DNA from: an uncultured Lachnospiraceae bacterium
Lineage (GTDB): Bacteria > Bacillota > Clostridia > Lachnospirales > Lachnospiraceae
Length of the DNA: 64,000 nt
Direction: 5' to 3'
Assembly: GCA_944381575.1 (NCBI GenBank)
Contig: CALWLS010000003.1
Location: 1 to 64,000, forward strand
The position numbers and the translations under genes are program-made. Every line of letters starts with the position of its first letter. Positions within the stretch are counted from its first letter, which is position 1. This document shows positions 49,191-51,358 of the stretch, piece after piece. The notes beneath the pieces were generated by a model. It did not search any database, had not been told where the DNA came from, and saw only the letters and a program-made list of their open reading frames with translations.

Positions 49191-49523
49191 TTGATAAGCA
49201 ATTATATTGAAAATGCAAATTTTGAGGATACCGGTTTCAGCTATACGCTTTCGATAATCAGTGGAAAGTACAAGATGATCATTCTTTACTGTCTTATGGA
49301 ATTCAGGGTCGTAAGATACAGTGAACTGAAGCGTTATATCAGATCCATATCCCACAAAACACTCAGCAATTCTCTGAAGGAGCTTGAAAGAGACGGGCTT
49401 ATACTGCGTCAGGAATATCCTCAGATCCCGCCAAAGGTAGAATACAGGCTTTCGGAAAAGGGAATGTCGTTAATGGTTATATTAGATCAGCTGTGCGTCT
49501 GGGGCGAGACACACAGGAATTGA
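49191..49523 (+). CDS. HxlR family transcriptional regulator
   Basis: A 110-residue winged helix protein: a SIISGKYKMIILYCL helix, then RYSELKRYIRSISHKTLSNSLKELERDGLILRQEY, and VEYRLSEKGMSL. The start is TTG 49191 with AAAGGA 10 nt upstream. The 96-bp space to the divergent oxidoreductase contains an AT-rich symmetrical stretch (ATTATAGCTATATATA) that could be its operator. It probably controls the oxidoreductase. Confidence 0.88.
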   Translation: MISNYIENANFEDTGFSYTLSIISGKYKMIILYCLMEFRVVRYSELKRYIRSISHKTLSNSLKELERDGLILRQEYPQIPPKVEYRLSEKGMSLMVILDQLCVWGETHRN

Positions 49524-49577
49524 AATTTTTGGTTAATGAGCACAAAGGAATTGTATAAATATCAGCACAATAGGATA

Positions 49578-49606
49578 TTGTATTTAAATAAAAACAATGG
49601 TATTAT
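49578..49606 (+). promoter_or_regulatory. Extended -10 promoter for a non-coding transcript
   Basis: TTGTAT (49578-49583), 17-nt spacer, TATTAT (49601-49606), with TGG immediately before the -10 (TGnTATTAT). It predicts a start near 49612, inside a gene-free region. Confidence 0.7.
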
Positions 49607-49611
49607 AAAGG

Positions 49612-49976
49612 CAACTTAAGAAAATAACTTATCCAAATAAAAATTACCGACAAGAGTCGAGGATGTATCATAAGAGATAAGTATTAAGTGAAAAAGTAGC
49701 AAGGGCATCGAGGATAACTTAAATACAAATCTTAGGTTATTAATAGATATCCGGAAGTACAAAAGCTTATAAAATATCACTTAATGATACATGTAAGAAA
49801 AGGGTAAAGCTTCAGAGAAGGATTTAAATGATCATAATAAAATGGATAGGCTAAATCTTAAGATCATATAAAACTTCATAGGAAAAGGACAACATTTTTA
49901 AGAAAGAATGAGGTAAATGTCCAATGGAAGTACAGAAGTAAAGACCACCGAGGTAATATCGGTGGTCTTATTCGTT
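49612..49976 (+). ncRNA. Structured non-coding RNA of unknown family, about 365 nt
   Basis: This occupies the 575-bp gene-free stretch between the HxlR gene and cvfB. It has an extended -10 promoter just upstream, no ORF of note, and ends with a 10-bp hairpin AAGACCACCG/CGGTGGTCTT (49941-49969) followed by ATTCGTT. Helices read by eye: CGAC/GTCG (49648-49659); ACTTATC/GATAAGT (49627-49633 with 49676-49682); ATGTATC/GATACAT (49663-49669 with 49786-49792); ATTAAGTG/CACTTAAT (49683-49690 with 49778-49785); a 9-bp stem with one G-U pair (49714-49722 with 49732-49740); GATTTA/TAAATC (49821-49826 with 49852-49857); ATGATC/GATCAT (49828-49833 with 49862-49867); ACATTT/AAATGT (49892-49897 with 49915-49920). 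Two pairs of helices cross, suggesting pseudoknots. No match to the RNase P, tmRNA, SRP or 6S landmarks I know. It may belong to a described large RNA class that I cannot recognise. Confidence 0.65.
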
Positions 49977-50098: not shown

Positions 50099-51358
50099 AT
50101 GAATAACGAGAACGATACCCCATCATATGACTTTGACGGCATGGATAGAAAGCCGTCCTATCCCTGCGACGCAGTAGAGGGAGCAGAGGAAAAAAGTGCT
50201 TATCCCTGCGACCTGCCGGAGGAAAAAGCATCCTATCCCTGCGATGACATTGGAGCTGCGGAAGGTGCAAGACCGTACCCCTGCGATACGGCGGATAAGC
50301 AGCCTGAAAAGCCCAAGGGTAAGGGAAGGCGCGGAGGAAACGCGGCGCTTTCAAGAGTTATACATTCAGGAGTTTTTGAAAGGACCGGAAAGAAACAGCC
50401 TGAGGCTAAAAGACCGGCATATGACAGAACAAAGGAAAGGCGCGGCGCCGACAGGGGCTTTAAGTCAAAGTCTCCTGAATCGATCTACGGAAGAGCCTAT
50501 ACGGTAAGGATAGAGGATACTTCCGATGTGGGAGCCTTTGTAAAGGCTCCGGATGAGGTGTTATTCAGCGAGCTGGGATCAAAGGTACAGAACTCGGGAG
50601 AGGTGCTGCTTCCTTTTTCTGAGCAGATAGGAAGGCCTAAGACCGGTGAAATGGTCACCGTGCATTTTTATGACGATAAGGGAGGCCGTCTTGCCTGCAC
50701 CATGCGTACTCCTTACCTGAAGGAGGGCGAGGTAGGCATACTTAAGGTAGCCCAGGTGACCAGGATAGGCGCGTTTTTGGATAACGGAGTGCCTAAGCAG
50801 GTACTGCTTCCGTTTAAGGAGCAGATAAAGACTCCGAGCGAGGGAGATGAAGTGCTGGTATGGCTCTATACGGACAAGTCAGGAAGACAGGCCGCCAGCA
50901 TGAGGGTCTACGGACATCTTTCAAAAAACAGCCCGTATAAGGAAGACGACAGGGTAAAGGGCTTTGTTTATGAGATAAATCCAAAGCTTGGGATATTTGT
51001 GGCCGTGGACAACAAATATTACGGACTGGTGCCTTTAAATGAGACCTTTAAGGAATATTCCTACGGGGATGAGCTGGAGGCAAGAGTGGCCAAGGTCCGT
51101 GAGGACGGCAAGCTTGATCTTTTAGTCAGGGATAAGCTGTATAAGACGGTAAATGAAGACGCCGATGTTATACTGTATGAATTAAAGAGAAATAATGGAT
51201 TCCTTCCTTACGGCGACAGGGCGGACGCAGAGTTCATTGAGGAAACCTACGCCATGAGCAAGAATCAGTTCAAGCGCGCCCTTGGCCATCTGTATAAAAA
51301 TCACATAGTGGATATAGATAGAAAAAATGACACTGTAAGGCTTATTCTTTCGGAATAA
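50099..51358 (+). CDS. cvfB: CvfB-like S1 RNA-binding protein with N-terminal YPCD repeats
   Basis: A 419-residue protein. From about residue 145 it follows CvfB/YitL: tandem S1-like OB folds (GEMVTVHFYDDKGGRLACTM, EVGILKVAQVTRIGAFLDNG, DRVKGFVYEINPKLGIFVAV) and a C-terminal winged helix (MSKNQFKRALGHLYKN). CvfB controls virulence and RNA metabolism in Staphylococcus. The first 140 residues are extra: YPCD occurs at 21-24, 35-38, 46-49 and 60-63, then a basic KGKGRRGG stretch. ATG 50099 has GGAGA about 9 nt upstream; an in-frame ATG at 50054 lacks one. A hairpin CCGGCA/TGCCGG (50035-50049) lies in its leader. Confidence 0.88.
   Translation: MNNENDTPSYDFDGMDRKPSYPCDAVEGAEEKSAYPCDLPEEKASYPCDDIGAAEGARPYPCDTADKQPEKPKGKGRRGGNAALSRVIHSGVFERTGKKQPEAKRPAYDRTKERRGADRGFKSKSPESIYGRAYTVRIEDTSDVGAFVKAPDEVLFSELGSKVQNSGEVLLPFSEQIGRPKTGEMVTVHFYDDKGGRLACTMRTPYLKEGEVGILKVAQVTRIGAFLDNGVPKQVLLPFKEQIKTPSEGDEVLVWLYTDKSGRQAASMRVYGHLSKNSPYKEDDRVKGFVYEINPKLGIFVAVDNKYYGLVPLNETFKEYSYGDELEARVAKVREDGKLDLLVRDKLYKTVNEDADVILYELKRNNGFLPYGDRADAEFIEETYAMSKNQFKRALGHLYKNHIVDIDRKNDTVRLILSE

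Follow-up and report, generated by a model that had tools for sequence, protein, structure and literature searches.

Does the spacer upstream of cvfB in the 64,000-nucleotide stretch of Lachnospiraceae DNA analysed here (the window) encode a large structured RNA of its own, and what might such an RNA do? Large structured bacterial RNAs without an assigned function are few and hard to approach. The original prediction had described a free-standing structured RNA with its own promoter in this region of ∼30% GC, and comparison among related genomes strongly supported it, as copies of the RNA covary in the tested helices except P4 (Table 1). The 363-nt stretch 49614-49976 folded at -87.2 kcal/mol (z = -8.07), and none of 100 shuffles was as good.

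Table 1. Features of the RNA locus and its borders, in window coordinates
Feature	Position	Strand	Sequence	Remarks
HxlR-type regulator gene	49191-49523			left border of the spacer holding the RNA
First operator-like palindrome	49550-49571		ATTGTATAAATATCAGCACAAT	one mismatch to ATTGTA-N10-TACAAT
Second operator-like palindrome	49577-49598		ATTGTATTTAAATAAAAACAAT	spans -35 and spacer; one mismatch
-35 hexamer	49578-49583	+	TTGTAT	direct sequence reading
Extended -10	49598-49606	+	TGGTATTAT	TG invariant in 22 aligned copies
RNA	49612-49969	+	5' end CAACTTAAGA	predicted ends, from conserved 5' end to end of final hairpin; one of 25 complete copies
P1a, 5' strand	49615-49621	+	CTTAAGA	pairs with 49856-49862; swap test
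P1b, 5' strand	49628-49634	+	CTTATCC	pairs with 49844-49850, one G-U; swap test
P2, 5' strand	49644-49648	+	UUACC	pairs with 49803-49807; comparative reading
P2, 3' strand	49803-49807	+	GGUAA	comparative reading
P1b, 3' strand	49844-49850	+	GGATAGG	swap test
P1a, 3' strand	49856-49862	+	TCTTAAG	swap test
Linker	49866-49881	+	AUAUAAAACUUCAUAG	AACUGAAUA in many copies; copy listings; conserved
P4, 5' strand	49887-49891	+	GGACA	pairs with UGUCC 49918-49922 just upstream of the AUG; identified visually in several copies
Shine-Dalgarno	49910-49914	+	GAGGT	9 nt before the AUG
Minigene	49924-49941	+	ATG GAA GTA CAG AAG TAA	MEVQK; in-frame stop
Final hairpin	49941-49969	+	U-tract TTATTCGTT	11 bp; starts at the stop codon's last base; terminator-like; poor U-tract
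cvfB	about 50099-51358			right border of the spacer holding the RNA

The RNA family is almost certainly real. The only genus in which we detected it is apparently GTDB Avilachnospira (family Lachnospiraceae), with 25 complete copies in 17 of 25 species and a partial copy in an eighteenth (G010; G, C and L numbers are our handles for genomes, contigs and loci). Each carrying genome holds one to three accepted copies, and that of the window has a second one on the minus strand at about 127378-127936 of G000:C4. Left out of these counts are L041, which ends at a contig edge and whose 3' part is probably L232, L054, which is the same copy as L186, and L217, the 3' part in G010. BLAST with a 431-base region returned a single long relative (G023, 71% over 183 nt), and within the genus the 5' end of the region drew many further short matches. 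A pattern joining the -10 to CAACTTAAGA matched 21 places in 15 of the 25 species and none in the reversed control. A sequence model, R1, was built from 22 copies and so matches those by construction; at E <= 1.0e-4 it found 26 matches, spread over 17 of the 25 species, four of these matches being outside the model's own set, and ten weaker matches (E 0.0076-0.088) were not accepted. Eight species, one of which holds the partial copy, had no R1 match at E <= 1e-4, so the RNA may be one that a species can do without, or may have diverged beyond recognition there. A model of the 3' end, R2, had just two base pairs and was not used.

Searches beyond the genus covered three wider collections. R1 matched none of 297 genomes of other Lachnospiraceae genera under stricter filters, which could miss diverged homologues. 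The 5' pattern, searched in 397 genomes of the family, matched five places outside the genus against seven in the reversed control; these five were rejected as chance matches, none showing the further motifs together. Among 84,980 species, 55 exact matches were found, of which 18 carried the further motifs, all 18 in this genus; the other 37 did not have these motifs together, and the single match in IMG/VR had none, with the limit that an exact pattern would miss variants such as CAGCTCAAGA. Upstream of the minigene AUG described below, copies range from 192 to 679 nt, indicating that the inner parts vary in size and the two ends are retained. The longest copies (L058 and L170) hold repeated inner segments, for example GATGTATAACATACATC in L058, and the inner part may grow by duplication.

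We compared the RNA with known families. A raiA- or ROOL-type identity had been suggested and found no backing, since cmscan with Rfam 15 over the whole window gave no match at the gathering score. When a 671-nt region was searched with E up to 10, six weak matches appeared (Tobamovirus IRES, ZNFX1-AS1, STnc430, potC, SR1 and SNORD44) with 14-21 bits against cut-offs of 40-60. In 21 related loci, 15 searched at E <= 1 and six at E <= 0.5, no cut-off was reached over the RNA: two tRNA genes of L002, outside the RNA, were the only cut-off matches among those 15 loci, and the sole weak overlap in the 21 came from a 5'UTR family of plant viruses, matching the other strand of L002 with 27.5 bits against a cut-off of 75. 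RF03072 (raiA/ModT) matched neither the 671-nt region (E up to 10) nor the 21 related loci; the raiA model also gave no match in 61 relatives, a search whose control genomes gave none either, that is, one with no working positive control. The models of ROOL, GOLLD and OLE, which belong to the Rfam library, had no match in the window or the 21 related loci. Of the housekeeping RNAs, neither tmRNA nor 6S had a match in the window, and elsewhere in the same genome there are a full-length tmRNA (RF00023) at G000:C1:289718-290060 with 137.4 bits and a 6S candidate (RF00013) at G000:C1:212488-212671 with 44.7 bits, just under the cut-off of 46.4. A literature search, limited in range and without supplements, returned no description of this RNA. 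It is a large structured RNA that reaches no Rfam cut-off and stands out by its minigene.

GOLLD, ROOL and OLE are mostly longer than the copies described here. All three are treated as large ornate bacterial RNAs in part of one account (PMC12286853). The RNA of the window shares with raiA RNA that it is large, stand-alone and structured; part of the raiA literature adds an intrinsic terminator and a published consensus of P1-P8 plus two pseudoknots (PMC11706538), and what sets the two apart is that the window RNA and its copies gave no Rfam match. Most similar in kind is the Soda Lake RNA (smtA motif), likewise genus-restricted and covarying, which has more than 350 nt, strong covariation and an unknown function, and lies upstream of smtA in Thioalkalivibrio; the section on it in that source mentions no minigene (PMC11109978), whereas the window RNA ends in one.

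The promoter of the original prediction, TTGTAT and a TG-extended TATTAT (TGG-TATTAT) separated by 17 nt, is present as described. Its TG is invariant across the aligned copies; invariance of the TA..ATA and CAACTTAAGA letters is partly by construction, as most of these copies came from a pattern demanding them. The promoter and terminator scan of the window did not list this promoter, TTGTAT agreeing with TTGACA at three of six positions, and the predicted promoter is a call that rests on conservation across copies.

Comparison of the copies also revealed an operator-like palindrome ahead of this promoter. Of the 25 copies, 23 had ATTGTA-N9/10-TACAAT with at most one mismatch in the 109 nt upstream of the -10, against 0.07 expected from mononucleotide shuffles, and the site lay mostly at -51, -24 or -85/-86 relative to the -10. 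Perfect palindromes were present in 15 of the 25 genus genomes and absent from the reversed control; none was found in the window's own genome. We read 20 stretches around palindrome sites for neighbours: three lay before a GntR/FCD regulator gene (L142, L146 and L149), two before an apparent pckA (L136 and L145) and three upstream of an apparent rpsJ (L147, L150 and L153), the rest being beside unrelated genes or the RNA itself. GntR/FCD identity comes from Pfam for one of the three genes, and pckA and rpsJ are readings only. This recurrence before growth and carbon genes and the RNA suggests a regulon, and the RNA promoter is probably regulated. The GntR/FCD regulator gene, found at G000:C3:115850-116545 in the window's genome, is present in 24 of 25 species and has the palindrome (at most one mismatch) before it in six of the 24, the window's genome not among them; that its product binds the palindrome is a guess.

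To assess the fold, we used an alignment-free swap test in which the 5' strand of each copy is paired with that copy's 3' strand and with the 3' strands of all the others over 20,000 permutations; because copies are taken to be interchangeable, their relatedness can favour a positive outcome. The long-range helix P1 reached -18.1 kcal/mol with its own partners compared with -12.3 for permuted ones, and P1b alone reached -11.5 compared with -7.6, in both cases with none of 20,000 permutations as good. Its partners change together, from CTTAAG/CTTAAG in most copies to CTCAAG/CTTGAG in L144 and GCTC/GAGC in L171. P2 reads as UACC/GGGUA, GCUGUC/GGACAGC or GCUAUC/GAUAGC in other copies and is absent from the window's own MFE fold; over 25 copies its region gave -13.2 compared with -9.8 (0 of 20,000), which is a region-level test only, with a very short 3' piece for L053, L170, L171 and L185. 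For P4, whose letters hardly vary, the swap test was not significant (p = 0.35 with 22 copies, 0.18 with 25). Even without the final hairpin, the 25 complete copies had a mean z of -4.5 (40 shuffles each), and 19 fell below -3. Chance complementarity in an AT-rich spacer that makes no RNA could invoke the low GC content and the fact that three of the four helices originally named compete with a conserved one, but it is already refuted by covariation and conservation and is scarcely credible.

Those four helices had been proposed to cross in two pairs, and the prediction was to fall if its listed helices did not covary. The RNA passed this check, but its crossing helices did not: all four are exact reverse complements at their places, yet the crossings are unsupported as native structure. 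In the first crossing (49627-33/49676-82 with 49663-69/49786-92), 49627-33 shares six bases with the conserved P1b (49628-34/49844-50), so that 49627-33/49676-82 clearly competes with a helix kept by evolution; 49663-69/49786-92 is the only named helix clear of P1 and is part of the window's minimum-energy fold. In the second (49821-26/49852-57 with 49828-33/49862-67), 49852-57 shares two bases and 49862-67 one base with the P1a 3' strand 49856-62, and we reject this crossing with less certainty because the overlap with P1 is at helix ends only. Between the two domains, the linker (AUAAAACUGAAUAG, about 49866-49881) shows little change in many copies, a conservation that might be expected of a protein or ribosome contact.

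The region had been described as 365 nt without a gene, which is not quite right: 49910-49941 hold a five-codon open reading frame with a Shine-Dalgarno sequence. As the minigene start we took the CC[A/G]AUG near the 3' end and, if there were several, the one with the best upstream Shine-Dalgarno. Every one of the 25 complete copies has this CC[A/G]AUG followed by an in-frame stop after 3-6 codons, the codon number including the AUG being three in 3 copies, five in 19 and six in 3. Early stops were also seen at 41 of 112 other upstream AUGs of the same RNAs, in frame +1 in 2 of 25 and in frame +2 in 10 of 25; such stops are nothing unusual in RNAs this rich in A, and relatedness among the copies means that they do not count as 25 independent events. 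A Shine-Dalgarno energy of -5 kcal/mol or lower was present at 24 of 25 minigenes (L039 has -4.8) compared with 20 of 111 other AUGs, and early stop and good Shine-Dalgarno came together at seven of those 111. All three stop codons (TGA, TAA and TAG) occur, and the stop is codon 4, 6 or 7. A pattern of Shine-Dalgarno spacing, TCCRATGGC and TGA matched 17 places in 25 genomes, all in this RNA, and the reversed control gave one match. Known copies account for 15 of the 17 places, and the remaining two, at G010:C88 and G001:C118, also carry the other parts of the 3' domain. As the pattern demands the stop, it tests specificity and not the stop. The minigene is probably translated.

The encoded peptides are diverse. 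Five-codon Met-Ala versions include MAHSR, MAHSN, MAECN, MAQCN, MAECK, MASSR, MASCK, MASCY, MAHQL and MADNQ; the others are MAECQR, MAGCKR, MAQIDR, MEISN, MEVQK (window), MDK and MYC. Across 14 distinct five-codon Met-Ala versions, codons 3-5 vary most at third positions (0.69 compared with 0.45 and 0.52). Among 18 close minigene pairs, 14 show an amino-acid change and the differences in the other four are all silent, so that the evidence for a kept peptide appears weak; for a kept start and stop it appears stronger. We rejected a longer coding frame (MKIIDLRGITKGV and related sequences in L057, L045 and L055), as its start codon is absent in some copies, for example L038 and L046, and the stretch can form a helix.

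Minigenes such as mg2 of axe-txe combine a Shine-Dalgarno with a very short open reading frame and have a regulatory effect, and are described as potentially toxic because peptidyl-tRNA is released, an effect that a strong Shine-Dalgarno increases and that is greatest with two codons (PMC8708949); the examples given in that context lie in or before mRNA genes, whereas here the minigene ends a free-standing structured RNA. It is very unlikely that the minigene drains tRNA or releases peptidyl-tRNA and makes the RNA a regulated brake on translation: this would accord with the toxicity raised by a strong Shine-Dalgarno and with the palindrome also standing before the apparent rpsJ and pckA in some species, but codons 3-5 vary widely, so no single tRNA is targeted, and the minigenes have 3-6 codons instead of the two that are most toxic.

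The stop codon lies next to the final hairpin in most copies. With their own partners, the hairpin strands of 22 copies reached -26.0 kcal/mol compared with -13.6 when permuted (0 of 20,000). The longest uninterrupted helix behind the open reading frame has 11-18 pairs and starts no more than 2 nt from where the stop codon begins in 22 of the 25 copies, which are all 22 outside the L048/L049/L052 clade; under a looser stem definition with outer pairs joined, the stem starts within 3 nt of the stop in 8 of 22. The clade has a three-codon frame with stops UAA, UAG and UAA, does not have the usual long hairpin, and continues with further sequence downstream. The terminator of the original prediction stands as a present and covarying hairpin, but its U-tract is atypical: at least five T in the next eight bases were counted in 7 of 22 copies, the window has four of eight, and the terminator scan of the window did not list the hairpin.

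An RNA without translation, acting in trans or as a scaffold, is possible but doubtful. Here GUCCAAUGGCA would be a structural or protein-binding motif, and the SD-like purines and the stop would be by-products of an A/G-rich RNA and of a UGA/UCA or UAA/UUA hairpin base. CCAATGG is indeed invariant in 17 sequences of alignment A2 and can pair upstream (duplex listing), and the stop letters take part in the hairpin base. However, P4 shows no detectable covariation, and the stops switch between UGA, UAA and UAG and between codons 4, 6 and 7. Early stops are common at other AUGs, as this reading would have it, but the Shine-Dalgarno strength is far above that of other AUGs; and although the peptide changes in most close pairs, the L048/L049/L052 clade keeps its stop without the long hairpin.

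The placement of a minigene's stop codon at a hairpin base resembles the geometry of attenuators. In a cis-acting leader (attenuator or riboswitch-like), translation of the minigene would open the hairpin and polymerase would read into the next gene, which in the window is cvfB. Such a leader could draw on the weak U-tract in 15 of 22 copies and on cvfB lying downstream and codirectional in the window and L087, but is distinctly improbable, as the next genes vary among copies and a homologous neighbour shares the strand of the RNA in L079 but not in L064. By crude ORF calling, the gene 3' of the RNA runs in the direction of the RNA in 10 of the 18 copies judged, which are 17 loci plus the window, and against it in the other 8; short reading frames overlapping the RNA were set aside in L079, L098 and L106, and 3 of 20 loci examined showed no downstream gene. 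Promoter, fold and minigene have stayed together although the sequence has changed strongly and the neighbourhoods differ, including the strand of the next gene; this fits an RNA acting on its own and not a leader. As to the neighbours themselves, CvfB of the genus has, ahead of its S1 domains, an N-terminal extension made up of ...YPCD... repeats (window 50099-50300; also L087, L104 and L106), and the upstream gene in L101 (the same copy as L052) reads as CTP synthase.

To a stand-alone regulatory RNA with its own promoter, whose 3' end would be engaged by ribosomes at the minigene, we give an even chance from the sequence comparisons. In this model, the RNA would be transcribed from its extended -10 promoter, probably under regulation, and would act in trans. 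Its 5' part would fold into a domain closed by P1, followed by the conserved linker, and the 3' domain would end in the ribosome-binding site, the 3-6-codon minigene and the final hairpin. Ribosomes would load on the minigene, be translating it, and terminate at its stop codon; a ribosome terminating there would, by the size of its footprint, reach into the hairpin. Because the stop lies at the hairpin foot in 22 of 25 copies, we infer that this ribosome could open the hairpin, and the opened hairpin would then control the RNA's end, its lifetime or its active fold. Such ribosome-dependent control of the 3' end or active fold is advanced tentatively.

A further-reaching version, which we consider rather unlikely, is an RNA device whose working part would be the ribosome on the obligatory 3-6-codon 3' minigene, with occupancy as input or effector, up to three differently sized versions per cell and an operator shared with growth genes. 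If ribosomes do sit at the minigene, a folded non-coding RNA would be joined to translation, an arrangement that we did not find described in the literature searched. For an RNA of this kind, the conserved 3' minigene, whose stop codon lies at the base of the last hairpin, offers a testable handle, and the palindrome before 23 of the 25 copies a lead to when the RNA is made.
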